Assembly (NCBI RefSeq): GCF_900105305.1
Contig: NZ_LT629765.1
Span: 2,480,001-2,544,000, forward strand
DNA length: 64,000 bases
Reading direction: 5' to 3'
Source: Corynebacterium timonense
GTDB lineage: Bacteria; Actinomycetota; Actinomycetes; Mycobacteriales; Mycobacteriaceae
Below are positions 6,599-60,131 of the stretch, one piece after another. The position numbers were made by a program, and so were the translations under genes. The first letter of the stretch is position 1; each line of letters starts with the position of its first letter. The notes under the pieces were generated by a model, which ran no database searches, had not been told where the DNA came from, and worked only from the letters and a program-made list of their open reading frames with translations.

Positions 6599-7081
6599 TT
6601 AGGCGTGTCCCTGGTTCCTCAAGTCCCGCAATTTTTTTAAGTAGGCGATTTCCGCTTCCAGCCGTTCAACCTGGCAGCGAAGCTTTTCTTCCTCAGAAAG
6701 CACCTTCGGTTTGCCTGAACCTTTCGGCCTGCCCTTCGGCTTCGGGCGCAGAGCCTCGTCGCCGCCTTTGCGCCACTTAATCACCCAGTCCTTGACGAGT
6801 TGGTCGGATGAAAGATTGAACTTTCGGGCAAGATCCATCTTCGACTCACCGGCCAGATGACGTTCCACAACCTCCTTCTTCGTCTCGAAGGAGTAGCGCT
6901 GCTTGTTCGGTTTCTCCACGAGACATAGCCTGCCACGTAGTTGGAAACGGCGATAGAGGCAGCGCGCTGCATCCCTCGAGACACCGACAACACGAGAAGC
7001 GGCGTGGGAACCCATTCCCTGCTCGAAAAGGTCGACTAACTGCTCACGCTGAACTTCACTCAGCGAACTACGTGCTCTCAA
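6599..7081 (-). CDS. IS3-family transposase OrfA (helix-turn-helix protein)
   Basis: 160 residues. It has two helix-turn-helix segments (EQLVDLFEQGMGSHAASRVVG and the region around HLAGESKMDLARKFNLSSD) and a C-terminal leucine-zipper-like helix (LRCQVERLEAEIAYLKKL), as usual for IS150-group OrfA. OrfA binds the terminal repeats and joins OrfB through frameshifting. Translation appears to begin at TTG 7081. The last codons overlap the slippery A7 tract that leads into orfB. Confidence 0.9.
   Translation of the reverse strand: MRARSSLSEVQREQLVDLFEQGMGSHAASRVVGVSRDAARCLYRRFQLRGRLCLVEKPNKQRYSFETKKEVVERHLAGESKMDLARKFNLSSDQLVKDWVIKWRKGGDEALRPKPKGRPKGSGKPKVLSEEEKLRCQVERLEAEIAYLKKLRDLRNQGHA
6632..6638 (-). 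other. Programmed -1 frameshift site of the IS3-family element
   Basis: Read on the minus strand, seven consecutive A residues follow TT near the end of orfA, inside codons for AYLKK. A -1 slip here changes ...KKLRDL to ...KIAGLEEPG and then runs without a stop into orfB (LKAQAIVILKSHHRLEYLL). This is the arrangement by which IS150-type elements make the OrfAB transposase. The site is seen directly; its use is inferred from the family. Confidence 0.75.
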
Positions 7082-7145
7082 AGAACATGCTCCCCACTAG
7101 TTGTTAGCAACTGATTTCTCAGTCCAACTAATGGGGAGCAGTTCA

Positions 7146-7232
7146 GTAATAGGGGGTTTCAGCGTCGACGAATCCTGAGCTGGGAAAAGCATATCCGTGA
7201 TGAATTTCCGCGATCTCACCGATCTTAACCAT
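7146..7232 (-). pseudogene. hsdS: HsdS, 5' part (first ~29 codons, cut by the IS)
   Basis: Starts at ATG 7232, 5 bp after the hsdM stop. It encodes MVKIGEIAEIHHGYAFPSSG and continues to ...AETPYY, the typical start of a type I specificity subunit. The frame then meets TGA, the first bases of the IS. The missing continuation is the 3' part at 4565-5704. Joined across one copy of the TAC duplication, the two parts give one uninterrupted specificity subunit of ordinary length. Confidence 0.85.
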
Positions 7233-7237
7233 TTCCA

Positions 7238-8824
7238 CTATCCCAACCTCCCCAACTGTTCCCGAACGATCGCGTCGAGACGGGCCGATTCATCCAGCGC
7301 CGCAGTGAGCTCAGCAGTGAGCCGCGCGATCTTCTCGTCGATCGGTTCGTCGTCCTCCTCGGTTTCGGCGAAGCCGACGTAACGGCCCGGGGTGAGCGCG
7401 TAGTTTGCCTCGCGGATCTCTTCGAGCGATACCGATTTGCAGAAGCCGGGGACGTCTTCGTACTCACCTTCGGCAGATTCGCGTCCGCGCCAGGTGCGGA
7501 ACGTGTTCGCGATCTTCTGGATGTCCTCGTCGGAGAAGGCGCGCTCGGTGCGGTCGATCATGTGGCCGAGGGTGCGGGCGTCGATAAGCAAGAACTGCCC
7601 GCGACGGTCCACGGAACCCTTCGAGCCTGCGCCCTTGTTCTTGGCAAAGAACCACACACACACCGGGATCTGCGTGCCGCGGAAGAGCTGGGAAGGCAGC
7701 GTGATCACGCAGGAGACAATGTCGTCTTCGAGCATGTTCTTGCGGATCTCGCCCTCGCCTGAGGTGTTCGAGGTCATGGTGCCGTTGGCCATCACCACAC
7801 CCGCCTCGCCCCGTGGTCCGAGCTTGGAAATGATGTGCTGCATCCAGCCGAAGTTCGCGTTCTTCTCCGGTGGTACCCCGTAGACCCAACGCTTGTCGTC
7901 GGTGTTGCGGACCCAGTCCTTGATGTTGAACGGCGGGTTGGCCAGCACGTAGTCCATCTCCACGCCGGGGTGGATGTCACGGGCGAAGGTGTCGCCCCAG
8001 CGCTCACCAAGGCCCTTCGCGCTCAGTGCGTGGATAGCGAGGTTCATGCGGGCCATGCGCCACGTGCGCTCGTTGAGCTCCTGGCCGTATATCGCGATTG
8101 CGGACGGATCCTTGTCGTGCGCGTCCAGGAACTTCTCCGCCTGAACGAACATGCCGCCGGAACCGCAGCACGGGTCGTAGACGCGGCCCTCCGTCGGCTC
8201 GAGGATTTCCACGAGCGTGCGAACCACCGGGCGAGGGGTGTAGAACTCGCCGCCGCGCTTGCCTTCTGCGGAAGCGAAGCGAGCGAGGAAGTACTCGTAG
8301 ACTTCCCCCAGCAGGTCGCGGGCCCGCTCCGGGCCTTCGGCCGTGAACCGGGTGGTGCTAAAGAGGTCGACGAGCTCGCCGAGGCGGCGCTGGTCCACGC
8401 TTTCGCTGTTGTAGTTGTGCGGCAGCGTGCCCTCGAGGGTGGGGTTGTCGGCCATGAGGGTTTCCGCGGCTTCGTCGATAAGCTTGCCTATCGCCCTGAA
8501 CTCGCCGCCAGCCTCCTCGGTCTTGCCCTTGGAGTGGCGCTGCAGAAAGTCCCAGCGAGCAGCAGGCGCGACCCAGAAGACGTTCTTTTCCAGGTAGGCG
8601 TCGCGGTCCTCGAGCTCCTCTAGGATCTCCTCCTCGGTGGCACCTTCCTCTTCGAGCTCGGCTTGGAGCTCTTGGCGGCGTGCATCGAAGGCATCGGTGA
8701 CGTACTTGAGAAACACGAGTCCGAGGACGATGTCTTTGTATTGCGAGGCATCCATGGAGCCGCGCAGCTTATCGGCGGCCTTCCACAAGGTGTCCTGGAA
8801 CTCTTTGACGGGGGTGGGAGTCAT
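7238..8824 (-). CDS. hsdM: Type I restriction-modification system, M (adenine methyltransferase) subunit
   Basis: 528 residues. It has an N-terminal HsdM helical domain (LWKAADKLRGSMDASQYKD) and then an N6-adenine methyltransferase domain introduced by GGEFYTPRPVVRTLVEIL. The S-adenosylmethionine motif is DPCCGSGGMF near residue 220 and the catalytic motif IV is NPPF near residue 297. With HsdS it methylates adenine in the target site and protects host DNA. I chose ATG 8824 (MTPTPVKEF) because family members begin there; the frame stays open 22 codons upstream. It is the first gene of hsdM-hsdS-hsdR. With hsdS broken, its targeting is uncertain. Confidence 0.95.
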   Translation of the reverse strand: MTPTPVKEFQDTLWKAADKLRGSMDASQYKDIVLGLVFLKYVTDAFDARRQELQAELEEEGATEEEILEELEDRDAYLEKNVFWVAPAARWDFLQRHSKGKTEEAGGEFRAIGKLIDEAAETLMADNPTLEGTLPHNYNSESVDQRRLGELVDLFSTTRFTAEGPERARDLLGEVYEYFLARFASAEGKRGGEFYTPRPVVRTLVEILEPTEGRVYDPCCGSGGMFVQAEKFLDAHDKDPSAIAIYGQELNERTWRMARMNLAIHALSAKGLGERWGDTFARDIHPGVEMDYVLANPPFNIKDWVRNTDDKRWVYGVPPEKNANFGWMQHIISKLGPRGEAGVVMANGTMTSNTSGEGEIRKNMLEDDIVSCVITLPSQLFRGTQIPVCVWFFAKNKGAGSKGSVDRRGQFLLIDARTLGHMIDRTERAFSDEDIQKIANTFRTWRGRESAEGEYEDVPGFCKSVSLEEIREANYALTPGRYVGFAETEEDDEPIDEKIARLTAELTAALDESARLDAIVREQLGRLG

Positions 8825-8834
8825 AGTTGGGAGC

Positions 8835-9463
8835 CTACTTTCCGGAGAAGACGAGATTGAGCAGGGCGTCGCTCGCGTGTTCGGCTTCACACTCGAGCTG
8901 GCGCGCCGCCGTGCGGGCGTTGTCGAGGGATCGGTGAGTCTCCGTATCTACGGCGCGCTGCCCGCTATAGAGCCCCGGGATGGCAATGCGGGCAACCGGC
9001 AGGTGCCGCGGAACCCTGCCGACGGCATCGATGTTTACCGGAGCATTGAGCCACGCCACGTTGAAATCTGGGTCGTATTCATCCTAGGAGGGGTGGGAAA
9101 CGAAGAGGGAGTCTGCTGGGACCCAGGTCTTGCCGTCGTCCTGGTGCGCCCGGGCTGGAAGCTCTCCGACTCGTGGCATTAGGATGCCGCCGGGGCGGAG
9201 AACATCGCTGGCTTCGTAGTTGTCTACGAATGCGGGAGCGGCGTCCCCGGCTGCGGCGGAGCCTGTATCTTCGGGGGCTTCGGCACTTTCTTGCCCGGTA
9301 GTGCACTCACATGCGCATACCGTTCTCCACTTGCCCTGCAAGGTTCTCGCAGCATCCGGAAACTGAAGAAGTCCTTTAGAAGCACACCTGTGGTGGACAG
9401 GTCGAAGGCGTCGACGCAGACCTCGCGCACGACGTTTTTCAGCTCATCCGGGGGACGGGACAT
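8835..9463 (-). pseudogene. Decayed specificity-subunit/N-6 methylase-like remnant
   Basis: Three overlapping open stretches in different frames form one protein-like sequence. The first (9463 downward) gives MSRPPDELKNVVREVCVDAF and on. The second (9341-9084) gives VDNYEASDVLRPGGILMPRV and WVPADSLFVSHP. After a 1-nt shift near 9080 the third (to 8835) gives EYDPDFNVAWLN, VGRVPRHLPVARIAIPGL and SDALLNLVFSGK. The 'DVLRPG...PRVG...DPDF.vAWLN...VGRVPRHLPVA.l.IPGL' pattern is like the recognition part of HsdS or of methylases with a fused specificity domain. At least two frameshifts make it inactive. It lies just upstream of hsdM and looks like debris of an older restriction gene. Confidence 0.55.
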
Positions 9464-9501
9464 TTAACGTGTTTCTGGTGGAGACTCCGTTTCGCAGTTG
9501 C

Positions 9502-9819
9502 TTATCGACGTGCCTCCGGCGCGCCGCCGGTGTCGCCCCCGCCGAACTCGCGGCGGAAATCCCCGTCCCAGTCGATCTCGCGGGCTAGGTATCCGGTGGA
9601 CTCCGGCGGGCCGTAAAGGTCACGCTCGAGCGTGTCGAGGTGGCGGTCGTTGGCGGCCTGGATGCCCATGACCAGAAACACTGCGCCCGCGACCGCGGCG
9701 GCGACGCCGGTGAACACGGCCGTCGGCCCGGACAGGAACGCAAAGGACAGGACGGCCACCACGATCAACGCCACGGCGGCGGCGTAGTTGCGGCCCGAGG
9801 AATTGCCTGTGTTGTTCAT
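9502..9819 (-). CDS. Small two-helix membrane protein, function unknown
   Basis: 105 residues from ATG 9819 (MNNTGNSSGRNYAAAV). Two adjacent hydrophobic helices are visible (AAAVALIVVAVLSFAFLSG and VFTGVAAAVAGAVFLVMGI), followed by a charged, mostly acidic tail with ERDLYGPPE and AREIDWDGDFRREFGGG. I do not recognise a family. The frame is open upstream of 9819, but the extra residues look non-coding. It is on the same strand as the GAP-family gene about 100 bp upstream and may share its transcript. Confidence 0.65.
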   Translation of the reverse strand: MNNTGNSSGRNYAAAVALIVVAVLSFAFLSGPTAVFTGVAAAVAGAVFLVMGIQAANDRHLDTLERDLYGPPESTGYLAREIDWDGDFRREFGGGDTGGAPEARR

Positions 9820-9919
9820 GGGGCTGAGTATTCCAGAGACACGAAGGCGGTGGGGCCGAGGAAAACAAATGGGGGCACCGTAGCCGGGCCGAGATGGAGG
9901 TCGTTTAAGACGGTAAAAC

Positions 9920-10609
9920 TCACAGAGCAGGAAGGTCGCCGCGGATCGTCGCAACGCTGCGGGCCACCATGTAAATGCCGACGATGGCGGCGATCCAGAG
10001 AAGCGTCACTTTTGCCTCGTACTCGAGGCGGGGGATAAGGCGCTCGAGCCGCGGGAAAAACTTCTGGCCGAACAGCAGTGCCAAGGTAGCGAGGAGAACT
10101 GTTGGCACGATCATAATGAGGCAGTAGATACCCACTGCCCCGGCCTTTGCCACGGATGGGATATCCCAGCTGCCGATGATGCCCATCGCTGCGATGTACG
10201 GCAGCATCGTCGCCGCCTCGGTAAGGGATGCGCCGAGGCCCAGGGCGACCATCCTTGGCAGACTGCTTGTGGCTCCGGTTGCGCGTTTCGGCAGCTGCCC
10301 GGGTTCGGGCTTTGTGGGGTCGGGGCCGAAGATGCCGAAGACCGCAAGGGCCGCGCCCAGCGTGAGCGTGATCCACGGGAAGATGTCGGTCTGCGTGACG
10401 CGTTCTGCGACCGAGCCGAGTCCTGCGAACCCGAGGAGCATCCCAAGTCCGAGGAGGAAGTAGACCAGCGCGACGGTGAACAAGTACGCGGTAAGTGCCG
10501 GTACTCGAACGGCACGCCAGTGGACGATGAGCGCAAGGGGAATAACTAGGGTGCCCAGGCTCAGGCTGTCGAGCAGCGCTAAGCCAATAACGGGGATGAC
10601 CGAGCTCAT
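9920..10609 (-). CDS. GAP/Sap-family (LysE-like) integral membrane protein
   Basis: About 229 residues with six hydrophobic segments (for example IPVIGLALLDSLSLGTLVIP, FPWITLTLGAALAVFGIFG and VTLLWIAAIVGIYMVARSV). The pattern matches the GAP/Sap family of the LysE/RhtB superfamily, whose mycobacterial members help move envelope lipids. ATG 10609 is chosen because GGAG lies 6 nt upstream; the TTG four codons earlier overlaps that ribosome-binding site. It is divergent from a TetR regulator across 73 bp with inverted repeats, so it is probably that regulator's target. The substrate cannot be told. Confidence 0.75.
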   Translation of the reverse strand: MSSVIPVIGLALLDSLSLGTLVIPLALIVHWRAVRVPALTAYLFTVALVYFLLGLGMLLGFAGLGSVAERVTQTDIFPWITLTLGAALAVFGIFGPDPTKPEPGQLPKRATGATSSLPRMVALGLGASLTEAATMLPYIAAMGIIGSWDIPSVAKAGAVGIYCLIMIVPTVLLATLALLFGQKFFPRLERLIPRLEYEAKVTLLWIAAIVGIYMVARSVATIRGDLPAL

Positions 10610-30469: not shown

Positions 30470-30834
30470 TATGCATTGCATAGTCGGGGCGCTCGCCGGC
30501 TGGGCGTTGATCCGTATGCATTGCATAGTTGCGGCGCTCGCCGGCTGGGGGCTGATCCGTATGCATTGCATAGTCGCGGGCCCGTCCGCTTCGGGGCCGG
30601 GGTGTATGCATTGCATAGTTGGGGCGGTCGGGGGCTGATCGGTATGCATTGCATAGTCGCGGCGCTTGGTTGTCGGGGGTTGATCCGTATGCATTGCATA
30701 GTCGGTGCGCTCGACGCTCGGGCGCTGATCCGTATGCATGGCATAGTTTCGGGCCCGTCCGCATGCGGCCGGGGGTATGCGTTGCATAGTTGCGGCGCTC
30801 GACGGTCGGGGGCTGATCGGTACGCATTGCATAA
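30470..30834. repeat. Array of nine TATGCATTGCATA near-palindromes with 45-bp period
   Basis: Copies of the 14-mer TATGCATTGCATAG start at 30470, 30515, 30560, 30605, 30643, 30688, 30733, 30776 and 30821. Steps are 45 bp except one of 38 and one of 43. The last three copies carry single changes. The core is a 13-bp palindrome except for its central base and contains an NsiI-type ATGCAT. Linkers are GC-rich and related to each other (GCGCTCG, GGGGGCTGATCCG). The array fills the 500 bp between the accD4 operon terminator and the HNH gene. It is not a CRISPR: repeats are too short and spacers are similar. Function unknown. Confidence 0.9.
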
Positions 30835-54941: not shown

Positions 54942-55026
54942 TGACGCGGACATCGTGAATATCTACCCCGTGCAATTGGCCCATGACCCGCAGGGTGGTG
55001 TGGGCGCCGGGGTATGCATTGCATAG
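54901..55026 (+). CDS. Possible 41-residue ORF cut short by the palindromic repeat
   Basis: ATG 54901 lies inside the last codons of the MMPL gene with GGGGGGAG about 9 nt upstream. It reads MTPDAQSPHPWPFDDADIVN and IYPVQLAHDPQGG, which looks protein-like, then runs into the TATGCATTGCATAG repeat that supplies its stop. It may be the start of a gene truncated when the repeat arrived, or chance. I do not recognise it. Confidence 0.3.
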   Translation: MTPDAQSPHPWPFDDADIVNIYPVQLAHDPQGGVGAGVCIA

Positions 55027-55156
55027 TTTTTGGGGCCGCCGGCCTAGGAGCAGTGTGGGTGCCGGACTATGCATTGCATAGTTTTTGCGCGGGGCTGCGG
55101 CCACGAAATGGCCTGGACGCCGGGCATGCATTGCATAGTTGGTATGCATTGCATAG
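55013..55156. repeat. Four dispersed copies of the TATGCATTGCATAG repeat
   Basis: Copies start at 55013, 55068, 55125 (CATGCATTGCATAG) and 55143. Three are followed by TTTTTG. Steps are 55, 57 and 18 bp, so the 45-bp rhythm of the 30.5-kb array is absent. They occupy most of the gap between the MMPL gene and ptsI; apart from the small ORF above, 54942-55216 shows no gene. The flanking sequence GGGCGCCGGGG matches the copy at 48802. Confidence 0.85.
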
Positions 55157-55216
55157 TTTTTGGGCGGGGCCTCCCCACACTCCCCGGATACATGAACCCG
55201 CAGGGCCACTACCGGA

Positions 55217-56908
55217 TCAAAGCAACGCCTCGAGCTTCGGGTTGGCGAGCGCGGCGACGGCTGCCTTGGCGTCGGCGGCGGTGAGGGCGTCGACGGCGTA
55301 GGCGGCCATCTGCTGGCAGGTCGCGCGGTCGTGCATGTGCAGGGCGGCGCGCACGGCGGGGATCTTCGAGGGGGCCATGGACAGGGAGCTCACCCCGAGG
55401 CCGACGAGCACGAGGGCGAGCAGCGGGTCGCCGCCCGCTTCGCCGCACACGCCGATGGGTTTGCCGGTGGCGTCGCCGCCCCGGCAGGCGGTGCGGATCA
55501 TGGTGAGGACCGCGGGTTGCCACGGCGAGAGCAGCTCGGAAAGCGCGCCCTGCATGCGGTCGGCGGCCATCGTGTACTGGGAGAGGTCGTTGGTGCCGAT
55601 GGACGCGAAATCGACGACGTCGAGAAGCTGCTTGGCGCTGATGGCGGCGGCGGGCACCTCGATCATGATGCCCACGTGGGGCAGCTGGCGGGCGCGGGCC
55701 TTGTCGGCGAACCAGCGGGCCTCCTCCATCGTGGCCACCATGGGTGCCATCACGCGTAGGTCGGCGCGGCGGTCGGTGGCCTCGAAGGCGGCGGCGAGCG
55801 CGTCGAGCTGGGTGTCCAGCAGGTCCTCGCGCGCCTGGGAGAGGCGCAGCCCGCGGCGCCCGAGCGCCGGGTTGTCCTCCTCGCCCAGGTTGGCGAAGGC
55901 CAGGGGCTTGTCGGCGCCGGCGTCGAGGGTGCGCACGACGACGCGGCGGGTGCCAAAGGCCTCGAGGACGCGGGAGTATGTCTCGGTCTGTTCCTCGAGC
56001 GTGGGGGCGTTGGCGTGGTCGAGGAAGAGGAACTCGGTGCGGAACAGGCCGGTGCCTTCGACGTCGCGGGCGGTGGCGGCCGCGCCGTCCTCGGCGGTGC
56101 CGATGTTGGCCAGCAGGCTCACGGGGTAGCCGTCGGCAGTCCTGCCGGGGCCGGTGGATTCCGCGAGGGCCGCTTGTCGACGCTCCGTGCGGCGCCTCAT
56201 CTCGTCGACCTCCTCATCGGAGGGGCGGACGATGACCTCGCCGGCCCCGCCGTCGAGGGCGACGAGGGTGCCCTCGGGGACATCCATGACCCCCTCCGCC
56301 CGGACCACGGCGGGGATGCCGAGCTGGGCGGCGAGGATGGCGGTGTGGCTGGTGGGGCCGCCAGCGGCGGTGATGATGCCGACGACGAGCTGGGGGTCGA
56401 GCCCGACGGTGTCGGCGGGCGCGAGGTCCTCGGCGAGCAGGACGGAAGGTTCGTCGATGGTGGGGACGCCGGGCTTGGGCAAGCCGCGTAGCTCGCAGAT
56501 GGTGCGGTCGCGCACGTCGTAAAGGTCGGTGACGCGTTCGGCCATGTAGCCGCCCAGGTTGCTGAGGATCGTGGCGTAGTCCTCGACGGCCTCGTGGACC
56601 GCGCGGGTCACTCCGGCGCCGGCTGTGAGCTTCTTGTCCGCGGCCTTTGCCAACGCGCGGTCGGAGGCGAGCTGGGCGGTGGCCTCCAGGATGGGGCGGG
56701 CCTTCGGGCCGGCGGTTTCGGCCTGCTGTTTGAGGGACGCGGTGACCGCGGCCATCGCGGCGCGGATGCGCTCGCTGTCGGCGGCGGGGTCGGTGGAGGC
56801 GGGCTCGTCGGCGTCCACGCCCGGCGCGGGGAGGACCTTGACTGCCTCGGCGCTCGCTGTGCCAGGGGAAACGCCAATGCCGTAGATGACGGTGTGCTGT
56901 TCAAACAT
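55217..56908 (-). CDS. ptsI: PTS enzyme I (phosphoenolpyruvate-protein phosphotransferase)
   Basis: 563 residues, with AGGAGG 5 nt before ATG 56908. The phospho-accepting His is in GGPTSHTAILAAQLGIPAVV (His188). The PEP-binding domain shows GLFRTEFLFLDH, VRTLDAGADKPL, the metal site GIMIEVPAAA and the Cys in GVCGEAGGDP. EI takes phosphate from PEP and passes it to HPr. The HPr nearest to it here is not a free protein but the C-terminal domain of the gene just upstream. It is the last gene of the EII-antiterminator/HPr-EI operon. Confidence 0.96.
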   Translation of the reverse strand: MFEQHTVIYGIGVSPGTASAEAVKVLPAPGVDADEPASTDPAADSERIRAAMAAVTASLKQQAETAGPKARPILEATAQLASDRALAKAADKKLTAGAGVTRAVHEAVEDYATILSNLGGYMAERVTDLYDVRDRTICELRGLPKPGVPTIDEPSVLLAEDLAPADTVGLDPQLVVGIITAAGGPTSHTAILAAQLGIPAVVRAEGVMDVPEGTLVALDGGAGEVIVRPSDEEVDEMRRRTERRQAALAESTGPGRTADGYPVSLLANIGTAEDGAAATARDVEGTGLFRTEFLFLDHANAPTLEEQTETYSRVLEAFGTRRVVVRTLDAGADKPLAFANLGEEDNPALGRRGLRLSQAREDLLDTQLDALAAAFEATDRRADLRVMAPMVATMEEARWFADKARARQLPHVGIMIEVPAAAISAKQLLDVVDFASIGTNDLSQYTMAADRMQGALSELLSPWQPAVLTMIRTACRGGDATGKPIGVCGEAGGDPLLALVLVGLGVSSLSMAPSKIPAVRAALHMHDRATCQQMAAYAVDALTAADAKAAVAALANPKLEALL

Positions 56909-56916
56909 GGTTCCTC

Positions 56917-58026
56917 CTACTCAGAGCTGAGGTCGCGTTCGAGCATAGCGGCGAGGGCGTCGAGCGCGTCGGCGGCTCCGTCGCCGGTGGCGGAGAGGGT
57001 GACCACGTCGCCGTGCTTGGCGCCCAGCGCCATGACCTCCAGGACGGAGGCGGCGTCGGCCTGCTGCCCATCGAAAGATACGGTCACGTCGGCGCCGGAC
57101 GCCGCGGCCGCTTCGGCGAAGAGGGAAGCCGGGCGCGCGTGGAGCCCGATCGGCGCGGCGATCGTGGCGGTGCGGGTGGGGGTGGCCGCCTCCACCATGC
57201 GGGCGATGTGGAGGGTCAGGTAGGACACCTCGTCCTCGGTGAGGGCTGCGCCGAGGCGCAGCTCGATAAGCGCCGCGAGGCGCTGGGCGCTGCGGTAGGC
57301 GCCGGGGGAGGAGTCGCGGATGGCGCGGCCGATGGCGGAGGAGTGCTCGCTGAGCTGCTCGTGGTTGGCGATGCGCACGAAGAGGTAGCGCAGGTGGGTG
57401 ATAAAACGCGCGACGCTCACCGACCCGGAATCGAGGGCGATGCCGTAGTCGCTTTCGACGTGGTCGAGCAGCTGGTTGAGCATGCCCGTCATCGTGTAGG
57501 TGAAACTCAGGTCACCGGTGGAAAAACCGGCGTTGACCAGGTGCAAGGCGATGGCCACGGCCTCCGCGTCGGGTAGCGGGGCGAGCTCACGCTGCACCAC
57601 GGCGCGGTTCACCGCCGCGACGATGGCCTTCGCCTGGCGGTACTCCTCGCCGTAGAGCTGGCTCACCTCCGCCTGGAGGGGATAATCGAGGCGTTGGCCG
57701 CTCGCCGCGCGGGAGATGGCGAAGCCGATGTGGTCCGCCAGCGCGACGAGCAGCGAGGCGCTGTGCGCCAAGGAGTCCGGCAGCCCGGCCTCCGCGACGG
57801 CGTCGGTGACCAGGGTGACATGCGCCAGCGGGATCGAGCTGAGCATCGTGGCCACGTGGTCGGGGTCCCGCCCGTCTTCGGGAACGAAGGTCCTGGCAAC
57901 GCGGGCGTCGTCGATGACGTCGCCGGGGTGCGCCTTGAAGCCAATGCCCCGGCCGGTGACGATCTTCTCGCCGGCGGAGTCCTTGGCCAGGACCACGTTG
58001 TTGTTAAAGACGCGCAGAATCTCCAT
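56917..58026 (-). CDS. BglG/LicT-type antiterminator (CAT-PRD1-PRD2) fused to an HPr domain
   Basis: 369 residues from ATG 58026. Residues 1-55 form the RNA-binding CAT domain (ILRVFNNNVVLAKDSAGEKI, VTGRGIGF). PRD1 has His99 (ALADHIGFA) and His162 (IALHLVNAG). PRD2 has His211 (FITHLRYLF) and His273 (LTLHIARMV). Residues 285-369 are a complete HPr domain with active His296 (IGLHARPAS) and Ser327 (ADAASVLEVMALG), 31 residues apart as in free HPr. There is no stop or frameshift at the junction. PRD antiterminators are switched by phosphate from HPr and EIIB; here the donor domain is covalently attached. The operon's leader carries a matching RAT and terminator, so it most likely controls its own operon. 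Confidence 0.92.
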   Translation of the reverse strand: MEILRVFNNNVVLAKDSAGEKIVTGRGIGFKAHPGDVIDDARVARTFVPEDGRDPDHVATMLSSIPLAHVTLVTDAVAEAGLPDSLAHSASLLVALADHIGFAISRAASGQRLDYPLQAEVSQLYGEEYRQAKAIVAAVNRAVVQRELAPLPDAEAVAIALHLVNAGFSTGDLSFTYTMTGMLNQLLDHVESDYGIALDSGSVSVARFITHLRYLFVRIANHEQLSEHSSAIGRAIRDSSPGAYRSAQRLAALIELRLGAALTEDEVSYLTLHIARMVEAATPTRTATIAAPIGLHARPASLFAEAAAASGADVTVSFDGQQADAASVLEVMALGAKHGDVVTLSATGDGAADALDALAAMLERDLSSE

Positions 58027-58030
58027 GGCG

Positions 58031-60028
58031 CTACGGCTGCACCTCAATGACGGTGGTTCCGGCGCCGACGGTGCCGCCGGTGATGGGCTCGACGTGGGAC
58101 ATCTTCTTCGTGTTGGTCACTGTGACGAGTGTGGTCGTGGGGTAGCCCGCCTCGGCGATGGCAGTGAGGTCCACAGTGGCCAGCAGGTCGCCTGCCTCGA
58201 CGCGCTGCTTCTTTTCTACCGCGACCTCGAAGCCCTCGCCGTCCATCTTCACCGTGTCGATGCCGATGTGGACGAGCACCTCGACGCCCTCGTCCGTCTT
58301 GATGCCGAAGGCGTGGCCCGTCTTCGCCACCGTCATCAGCGTGCCGGCGACGGGGGAGACCACCGTCGGCTCGCTCGGGATGATGCCCAGGCCCGCGCCG
58401 AGGGCGCCGGAGGAAAACACTTTGTCGCCGGTGTCCTCCAGGCTGATCGCCTCCCCGGCGACGGGGGCGGTGACGTGGACGGTCGACGGGGCGTCGTCAC
58501 GCGGCGCGGGCTCCGCCGTCTCACGCTGGGCCTGCTCCGCGGCGGCGACGCGCGCCTTGACCTCGGCCCGCTGTTCGGGCGTGCGGTAGTCCGTGAGCAC
58601 AATCGCGAACATGGCGACGAAGAAGGCCACCGCGATGGAGATGGCATACACCCACATCGGGCTGAAGACCACGGTGGTCAGCAGCGATGTGAACACGAAG
58701 GCTTGGGTTTGCACCCCGTCGAAGGGGGCGGAGAGCACGGCGATGGTGATGCCGCCGGCGAGGCAGCCGAGCAGCATGCGCGGGTAGATGCGCTTGAAGC
58801 GCAGGTGGATGCCGTAGAGCGAGGGCTCGGAGATGCCGCCGAACAGGCCCGCGGCGAGCGCGCCGGAGGCGGTCTGGCGCATCTGGGTATCGCGGTCGCG
58901 CATGGAGAGGGCGAGGACGCCGGCGGTGGCGCCGAAGCAGGCGAAGTTCCACACGCCCATCGGGCCCTGGATGAAGTCGTAGCCCAGCGTCTGGATGTTC
59001 ACCAGCATGAGCGCGTTGAGCGGCCAGTGCAGGCCCAGCGGGACGAGGAAGGGGTAGAGCAGCGGGATCATGACCGCGAAGACGAACGGCGCGTTGGAGT
59101 TCATCCACGCCAGGCCCTCGCCAATGCCGTTGCCCAGCCACACGCCCAGCGGGCCGATGAGGAAGGCGGTCAGCGGGATGATGATGAGCATGGAGATGAA
59201 CGGCACGAACACCATCTGCACGTTCTCCGGGAAGACCTTCTTCAGGCCGTGGTAGACCAGCGCGAGGATGGGCACCATGAGCAGCGGCACGAAGACCTGG
59301 GAGCCGTAGTCGTTGAGCTGCATCGGGATGCCGAAGATTTCGGTGGTGAAGAACTCCTGGCCCAGCGACTCGTTGACGGCGGAGGTGGTGTCGGCGAAGC
59401 GCTCCGGGTCGGACAGGCTCATGAACTCCGGCGTCATCAGCGCGGCCATGACGGCGGCGCCGAGCCACGGGTCCACGCGCAGCTTCTTCGCGGCGTTGTA
59501 GGCGATCATCAGCGGCAGGAAGTAGAACACGCTGCGCCACATGGCGTCGACGAACACCCAGGTCGCCGGCTTGTCCTCCGCGCGGAAATCGACCACGCCG
59601 AGCGCGTCGAGCACGGCGGCGATGGCGATGATGAGCGAGGCACCCAGCAGGACGCCGAGGATCGGGCGGAAAGAGTCGGACAGGTACTCGAAGAAGTTGT
59701 CCAGCCAGGAGAACCTCCCGCGCCCCCTCGCCCGCGCGGCGGCCTTGACGTCGGCGTCGGAGGCGCCGCCCTTCATCTCCGGGAGGTTCTTGATCGCGGC
59801 GTACGTCGACTCGACGCCGCCGCCGCAGATGACCTGGTAGCGGTTGCCTCCCTGGCGCACGACACCGAGCACGCCGGGGGTGTTTTCGAGCGCCGTGTCG
59901 TCTGCCTGGGCGGGGTCGTTGAGCTCAAGCCGCAGACGCGTCGCGCAGTGGGTCAGGCTGGAAATGTTGCCTGGCCCGCCGAGGTTGGCGACGATATCGC
60001 GGGCGGCGGACTCTGTGGTCGTTGCCAT
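58031..60028 (-). CDS. Beta-glucoside-type PTS permease EIIBCA
   Basis: 665 residues from ATG 60028 (AAGG 7 nt upstream; an earlier ATG falls in the leader terminator). The EIIB domain has Cys28 in SLTHCATRLRLEL. The ten-helix EIIC domain (about residues 100-470) has GGISEPSLYGIHLRFKR and PLGLHWPLNALML. The EIIA domain has its His near residue 585 in VEVLVHIGIDTVKMDG. The BCA order and the RAT leader point to the BglF/BglP beta-glucoside family rather than glucose PtsG, but sugar specificity cannot be read from sequence. It is the first gene of the operon. Confidence 0.93.
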   Translation of the reverse strand: MATTTESAARDIVANLGGPGNISSLTHCATRLRLELNDPAQADDTALENTPGVLGVVRQGGNRYQVICGGGVESTYAAIKNLPEMKGGASDADVKAAARARGRGRFSWLDNFFEYLSDSFRPILGVLLGASLIIAIAAVLDALGVVDFRAEDKPATWVFVDAMWRSVFYFLPLMIAYNAAKKLRVDPWLGAAVMAALMTPEFMSLSDPERFADTTSAVNESLGQEFFTTEIFGIPMQLNDYGSQVFVPLLMVPILALVYHGLKKVFPENVQMVFVPFISMLIIIPLTAFLIGPLGVWLGNGIGEGLAWMNSNAPFVFAVMIPLLYPFLVPLGLHWPLNALMLVNIQTLGYDFIQGPMGVWNFACFGATAGVLALSMRDRDTQMRQTASGALAAGLFGGISEPSLYGIHLRFKRIYPRMLLGCLAGGITIAVLSAPFDGVQTQAFVFTSLLTTVVFSPMWVYAISIAVAFFVAMFAIVLTDYRTPEQRAEVKARVAAAEQAQRETAEPAPRDDAPSTVHVTAPVAGEAISLEDTGDKVFSSGALGAGLGIIPSEPTVVSPVAGTLMTVAKTGHAFGIKTDEGVEVLVHIGIDTVKMDGEGFEVAVEKKQRVEAGDLLATVDLTAIAEAGYPTTTLVTVTNTKKMSHVEPITGGTVGAGTTVIEVQP

Positions 60029-60068
60029 CGTGGCCTTCTTTCTTCCGGAGGTGACTGTCGCTCGCATG

Positions 60069-60110
60069 AAAAAAGACCCGAGGCACCACGACGTGGCGGC
60101 CTCAGGTCTT
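60069..60110 (-). terminator. Leader terminator controlled by antitermination
   Basis: On the minus strand AAGACCTGAGGC pairs with GCCTCGGGTCTT around a loop of about 14 nt and is followed by T6, a strong rho-independent terminator 41 bp before the EII start. Its left arm overlaps the RAT sequence, so protein bound to RAT would prevent it from folding. This is the classical bgl/sac/lic layout. Confidence 0.9.
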
Positions 60111-60131
60111 GCCTCGTGCGAGTAACAACCC
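60104..60131 (-). promoter_or_regulatory. RAT (ribonucleic antiterminator) for a BglG-type protein
   Basis: Read on the minus strand it contains TTGTTACT, a short hairpin segment, and GGCAAGACCT, the two conserved halves of BglG/LicT/SacY RAT sites. It overlaps the 5' arm of the terminator at 60069-60110. The CAT domain of the downstream PRD-HPr protein is the expected ligand. Confidence 0.88.

Follow-up and report, generated by a model that had tools for sequence, protein, structure and literature searches.

PRD regulators normally receive their phosphate from a diffusible HPr that they share with the permeases, and a covalent donor could abolish or alter this competition. The whole 64,000-nucleotide stretch of DNA analysed here (the window) raises the question of whether such a donor exists, in the form of a gene whose predicted product is a PRD antiterminator and an HPr in one chain. 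Is this gene real, from what did it arise, and what might the joined HPr do?

An antiterminator and an HPr domain in one open reading frame

The gene lies at positions 56917 to 58026 of the minus strand, from an ATG at 58026 to a stop codon that ends at 56917, and encodes 369 amino acids. Pfam gave a CAT_RBD RNA-binding domain (residues 1-51, 57874 to 58026; E 1.3e-17), two PRD stretches and a PTS-HPr domain (residues 284-363, 56938 to 57177; E 2.4e-23), each over its cut-off; EIIA, EIIB-like, EI and DNA-binding domains were absent from the Pfam result for the chain. The PRD1 stretch (57541 to 57732) runs from His99 (57730-57732) to His162 (57541-57543), and PRD2 (residues 185-276, 57199 to 57474) contains His211 (57394-57396) and His273 (57208-57210). 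An eight-residue linker, VEAATPTR (57172 to 57195), leads into the HPr domain, which carries the active-site motif GLHARP with His296 (57139-57141) and Ser327 (57046-57048) at +31, and which also exceeds the cut-off of TIGR01003. The preliminary description had named the four PRD histidines, His296, a serine at +31 and a single open frame; the residues are exact, and no stop interrupts the frame at the PRD2-HPr junction. Histidines 99, 162, 211 and 273 are conserved in every CAT-PRD row of the alignment.

The NCBIfam LicT profile matched residues 2-276 (counted on the chain without Met) with 202 bits against a cut-off of 300, and the GlcT profile scored 178.6 bits against 320. On this sequence evidence the fused regulator is assigned to the BglG/LicT superfamily, with LicT or GlcT identity itself below the equivalog cut-offs. 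Solved structures gave 39 matched sequences, not one of which covers both the PRD and HPr parts; the nearest are LicT (1tlv, 1h99) and HPr (1rzr). An artefact of a single assembly is ruled out, since many genomes carry the fusion, and a sequencing artefact is unlikely because the C. auris protein (P0001) is 98% identical to the window fusion at equal length and the fusion recurs across the genus (see below). The fusion is real and conserved.

The order CAT-PRD1-PRD2, the four PRD histidines and a RAT-like target overlapping a terminator are shared with LicT, BglG, SacY and GlcT; the fusion differs in adding an HPr after PRD2. Multiphosphoryl transfer proteins (FruB/FPr, DhaM) likewise hold an EI-fed HPr in a longer chain, but there, according to the available part of PMC2405797, HPr is joined to transport and phosphorelay domains, including IIA and EI domains, whereas here it is joined to an RNA-binding regulator. 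MtlR/LevR-type proteins are also PRD regulators bearing a PTS-derived domain; MtlR has EIIA- and EIIB-like domains (stated in part of PMC6148471), whereas the fusion bears HPr, the general donor. Neither "PRD" nor "antiterminator" appears in the main text of PMC2405797, and "fused" is absent from the available part of PMC8560693, a review of PRD virulence regulators. The earlier view that this architecture is uncharacterised agrees with our finding no PRD-HPr fusion, and no biochemistry of one, in a literature lying mostly outside subscription journals and judged chiefly by titles and the beginnings of abstracts.

The fusion gene lies between EIIBCA and enzyme I behind a RAT-like leader

The fusion gene is part of a PTS cluster with the order EIIBCA, PRD-HPr fusion, EI, all on the minus strand, with a RAT/terminator pair in front. 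The EIIBCA gene (58031 to 60067; Pfam PTS_EIIB, PTS_EIIC and PTS_EIIA_1) is separated from the fusion gene by four bases. Its longest frame has 678 amino acids, and the true start is likely the ATG at 60028, because several relatives align from residue 14-15 of that frame. The phospho-residues of EIIBCA are Cys41 of EIIB and a histidine of EIIA (numbered on the 678-residue frame), and enzyme I (ptsI, 55217 to 56908; TIGR01417 over cut-off) has its active His188. As read from these residues, one gene cluster holds predicted phospho-sites all the way from PEP to the sugar, and it would be co-transcribed as a single transcript. Just beyond the end of ptsI, the stretch 55014-55160 contains four copies of a ATGCATTGCATAGTT motif, and eight copies lie at 30471-30793 of the window (at most two mismatches; none in 100 shuffles).

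Directly ahead of EIIBCA on the same strand is a RAT-like antiterminator RNA site, GGGTTGTTACTCGCACGAGGCAAGACC (60105 to 60131), which fits 18 of 20 positions of what we take to be the RAT consensus. Its six 3' bases are the start of an intrinsic terminator (60069 to 60110, minus strand; -27.5 kcal/mol, z -6.4, six T at the end), and the two structures are mutually exclusive. The RAT stem alone is no better than shuffles (-6.2 kcal/mol, z -0.95), so support for the site comes from its conservation and its overlap with the terminator. The RAT core does not vary across an alignment of 11 leaders, of which nine belong to fused loci and two to unfused or split ones. By eye, both halves were recognised in the window and in each of the 13 further Corynebacterium fusion loci; among eight unfused or split loci inspected in this way, L058 showed no RAT halves within 320 bases. 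A strictly beta-glucoside operon is unsupported: the beta-glucoside EII model TIGR01995 scored 515.5 against a cut-off of 614.7, and GH1 enzymes were found in four of 15 fusion genomes, the window genome included.

Distribution of the fusion and of its PTS partners

A domain search, one of the checks named in the preliminary description, recovered CAT-PRD-PRD-HPr in at least 14 of 242 Corynebacterium genomes, among them the window genome, and in a Trueperella-like genome (G634), among the matches listed. In the same terms, at least two of 394 genomes of the class carry it, both of them Corynebacterium, and so does at least one among 396 genomes from the order to which G585 belongs, namely G634, whose protein is like that of Trueperella pecoris (P0050) in length and linker. 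The Trueperella-like genome also has, downstream (L156:11098-14365), another PRD gene, genes that match EII, and a free-standing HPr with GAAAGGA before its start. The best 55 protein matches (P0001-P0055), many of them near-copies, all have both PRD and HPr. Their named records read HPr family protein, except that P0055 is hypothetical or PRD domain-containing, and the "HPr family" name on most named records hides the regulator half. A query with the HPr part, limited to proteins of 0.55-1.75 times the fusion length, returned 51 proteins: 45 PRD-HPr, five with PF03610 (presumably EIIA of mannose type) and HPr, and one EI with HPr.

Of the 14 Corynebacterium fusion loci, 13 have EI next to the fusion, and each of the 14 genomes has one EI. 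In G240 no EI lies on the fetched stretch by the fusion, and its only EI is elsewhere, near its other HPr. The EI beside the fusion in L051 (G091, 8869-10558), the sole EI found there, is split into two frames of 81 and 442 amino acids. PF02378 EIIC is represented once, by the cluster's own gene, in 10 of the 14 genomes, twice in G017, G195 and G232, and four times in G240. Extra HPr domains number one in eleven genomes, two in G232 and none in G148 and G110, so that 12 of 14 fusion genomes, the window genome among them, carry a further HPr domain. G148 and G110, each with a listed completeness of 100%, have the fused HPr as the only HPr found; the fused gene therefore has to supply the PTS HPr in these two, unless a very divergent HPr was missed. 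This strongly suggests that the chain can serve as the HPr for sugar uptake, as had been proposed for it. For Ser327, which would correspond to the regulatory Ser46 that HPr kinase uses, no kinase was found: family PF07475 gave no match in 15 genomes, in a search that did not recover the B. subtilis control either. According to the available part of PMC2405797, Actinobacteria lack HPrK.

Separate licT and ptsH genes as the likely source of the fusion

In five loci, that of Scardovia wiggsiae (L006) and four from other actinobacteria (L157-L160), licT, ptsH and ptsI are separate neighbours. These loci resemble the fused ones in gene order and in the GAAAGGA ribosome-binding site before ptsH, and differ in having PRD and HPr in separate genes. 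In L157 a single TGA, in the frame shared by PRD and HPr, separates the two. The licT product of L158-L160 has PIRKES or PIRKESQ at its end, and the codons there contain CGAAAGGAATC, which is the Shine-Dalgarno stretch of ptsH. A joined match in Scardovia was rejected as a fusion, PRD and HPr being separate genes, and so was G965, where both matches had the same open-frame length and one in-frame TGA intervenes. Corynebacterium loci L055, L056, L058 and L060 show EII-PRD-EI without an intervening HPr; L057, L059 and L061 show EII-PRD, and their fetched stretches contain no EI. In L168 (G907), an 818-residue PRD-matching ORF (6606-9062; PRD at residues 539-813) overlaps a 685-residue EII ORF (7541-9598), and because of this overlap its real start is probably internal.

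The 24 fused rows in a 49-row PRD tree fall into one group (100/98) that includes a single unfused member, P0059, and the window, C. auris and P0002 sequences are nested deep inside it. The 11 EIs used from fused clusters also group together in the EI tree (84/99). L045 and L046, near-copies of L044, were left out of both trees, and L051, with its two-piece EI, was left out of the EI tree as well. A smaller PRD tree with fewer outgroups placed an unfused clade, weakly supported (85/62), among the fused rows, where P0056, P0059 and P0057, the last labelled partial, fall; the backbone of this tree is weak (75/45), and the single origin therefore rests on the 49-row tree. The fusion likely arose when licT was joined to the ptsH that followed it in an EII-licT-ptsH-ptsI operon, and the split clusters would show that ancestor.

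Most relatives keep a ptsH start inside the fused frame

Eleven of 14 Corynebacterium loci, together with the Trueperella-like locus, have a linker that ends in (R/G)K(D/E)xxM. The DNA of these loci reads GAAAGGA-N7-ATG, which is thus present in 12 of 15 fused genes with DNA, and in all 12 GAAAGGA occurs once per gene, solely at that site. The arginine codon at the motif is CGA in 11 of the 12, a minor codon in these genes; L049 has glycine, and its GGA preserves the motif. The product of the per-gene codon chances is about 10^-13, which is not a probability, as the genes are related. Among the proteins, RK(D/E)xxM was found in 46 of 55, and P0003 has RKE, three residues and Met. P0036 and P0040, available as protein sequences only, carry Leu and Val in place of this Met, and these would be compatible with other start codons. 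The motif is absent from six of the 55 (P0001, P0002 and P0052-P0055), and P0052-P0055 together with G240 represent a second loss of the ptsH site.

Over 10 pairs from five C. amycolatum-like loci, the PRD part had a dN/dS of 0.06-0.15, HPr one of 0-0.06 and the linker one of 0.38-1.29, with zero amino-acid changes in RKDST; the HPr domain of these fused loci is strongly constrained. Frames are open throughout 25 fused rows with 17 distinct linker lengths, a biased count in that the rows were chosen as fused. Because the ptsH ribosome-binding site and ATG persist inside the frame in 12 of 15 genes, we infer that this start is used and that such genes probably make both the fusion and free HPr. 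They would represent a gene fusion that keeps a joined and a free product by means of the second gene's ribosome-binding site inside the frame. The linker of the window gene is without this in-frame ribosome-binding site and ATG, and the window species and C. auris are probably obligate fusions in which the ptsH site was lost.

How the joined HPr may act

The fused protein probably switches on the sugar-uptake operon. Read from the sequence, the architecture, phospho-sites, gene order, RAT/terminator pair, fused descent and the relatives' conserved internal start form the setting of the reading that we somewhat favour, namely a LicT/BglG-type antiterminator with a working C-terminal HPr, derived from a licT-ptsH fusion, in which His296 would charge both EIIA and PRD2, in cis or across the dimer. 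By the usual PRD rule, as given in part of PMC6148471, PRDII is activated by HPr(H15~P) and PRDI is inactivated by the cognate permease. We infer the phosphate transfers and the direction of control as follows. EI~P would charge His296. From His296~P the phosphate would go to two acceptors: EIIA of the permease encoded in the same operon, for sugar uptake, and PRD2 (His211/His273), reached in cis or across the dimer, so that the active dimer is favoured. Transfer from HPr to PRD in cis is plausible. With no sugar, P~EIIB would phosphorylate PRD1 (His99/His162), the regulator would be inactive and transcription would stop at the leader. With sugar, PRD1 would be dephosphorylated and PRD2 charged by the tethered or another HPr; the dimer would then bind the RAT and prevent termination, and EII, regulator-HPr and EI would all be made. 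In most relatives with DNA the internal ptsH start should add free HPr, and the window species would probably make only the fusion from this gene.

Several observations count against this reading, among them the LicT score below its cut-off and the unfused members in or beside the fused group. HPr in trans could do everything, because 12 of 14 fusion genomes hold a further HPr domain, and unfused Corynebacterium regulators without a tether retain the same PRD histidines. The donor is also not always needed, because C. yudongzhengii/G240 keeps the fused frame with the HPr histidine changed to Gln: in G240 (L053:6568-7689) DGLQARA replaces GLHARP and the frame is still open. Among P0001-P0055 the HPr histidine is lost in P0055 (C. 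yudongzhengii) only. Together, the split genes, the fusions that have an internal start, those that are probably obligate and the one that lost its HPr histidine form a natural test series.

A more specific form of the favoured reading, slightly less likely than not, is that one frame would provide both a regulator with a tethered donor and, through the inherited ptsH start, free HPr, this being the only HPr in at least two species; the window lineage would have become obligate, with PRD2 charged in cis and reading EI flux directly. If true, the cell would have its general PTS carrier coupled in supply to the production of an RNA-binding regulator. It is less likely, if still a serious competitor, that sugar uptake is the sole role of the fused HPr, the join being a tolerated accident, the PRDs phosphorylated in trans and the tether without regulatory meaning. 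The nearly neutral linker of the C. amycolatum-like loci agrees with this, as do the PRD histidines of the unfused regulators and the retention of the ptsH start in 12 of 15 genes, by which free HPr is probably what the cell needs. However, frames stay open despite the varied linker lengths, in rows whose selection was biased, and the window species and C. auris have lost the ptsH start yet keep the frame, the HPr and the PRD residues.

The PRD2-HPr junction of the window species

Between residues 241 and 330 of the window gene the in-frame ATG, GTG or TTG codons are GTG267, ATG277, GTG278 and GTG314. GTG267, within PRD2, is preceded by GAGGACGAG, a Shine-Dalgarno-like stretch common to the window and C. 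auris (L042); no such stretch lies ahead of the other three. GTG267 could act as a start, and the product would be a 103-residue HPr with about 19 extra residues. GAGGACGAG may be there by chance, because it codes for the Glu-Asp-Glu of the PRD2 stretch TEDE(I/V)SYL, which is also present in nine other loci. The equivalent of codon 267 in the nine fused loci L043-L051 is GTC, GTT, ATT or ATC.

In an AlphaFold model of the window fusion (37 sequences, pLDDT 80.7, pTM 0.62), the last PRD2 helix (263-280, numbered without Met) is followed almost without a break by the opening strand of HPr (283-287); mean pLDDT is 89 for residues 271-280 and 94 for 281-290. As modelled, the window gene probably encodes an obligate fusion with a stiff junction; with a moderate pTM of 0.62, we make no claim on which PRD histidine His296 can reach. 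It is improbable that the chain also or only exists as separate parts, through internal initiation or proteolysis, with PRD and HPr acting as in known systems. The GAAAGGA-N7-ATG of relatives and the candidate GTG267 start would agree with that, and codon 267 is not a start codon in the nine other fused loci. Against it, the stretch upstream of GTG267 may be coding coincidence, ATG277, GTG278 and GTG314 are without one, and the modelled junction is continuous.

The free ptsH of the window genome

Family searches of the window genome, a single-contig 2.63-Mb Corynebacterium assembly, found one EI (PF05524), one CAT_RBD, one EIIC (counted as family PF02378) and two HPr, and the first three are all located in the fusion cluster. 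The second HPr is a free 88-residue ptsH between lexA and a DeoR-type regulator (L002; G000:C1, about 746862-747104). A search for a free ptsH had been suggested earlier, and its outcome is divided: the fused domain is ruled out as the sole HPr of the window genome, and it has that position in G148 and G110. With a free ptsH in the genome, the earlier claim that regulation would depend on EI and EII only need not hold. The free gene looks like a remnant of a fructose-PTS cluster, because C. glutamicum ptsH sits within such a cluster with sugR nearby (stated in part of PMC2222622). Only the EI adjoining the fusion, the single one found, could feed it. That the fused HPr of the window species is a relic on its way out, with the free ptsH doing the work, would fit the presence of this gene and the condition of G240/C. 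yudongzhengii (no HPr histidine, no EI beside the fusion), but is hardly likely with the window HPr motif intact, a Pfam HPr score of 86.7 bits for the fused domain against 66.4 bits for the free one, EI next to the fusion, and the fused HPr the sole HPr found in G148 and G110.
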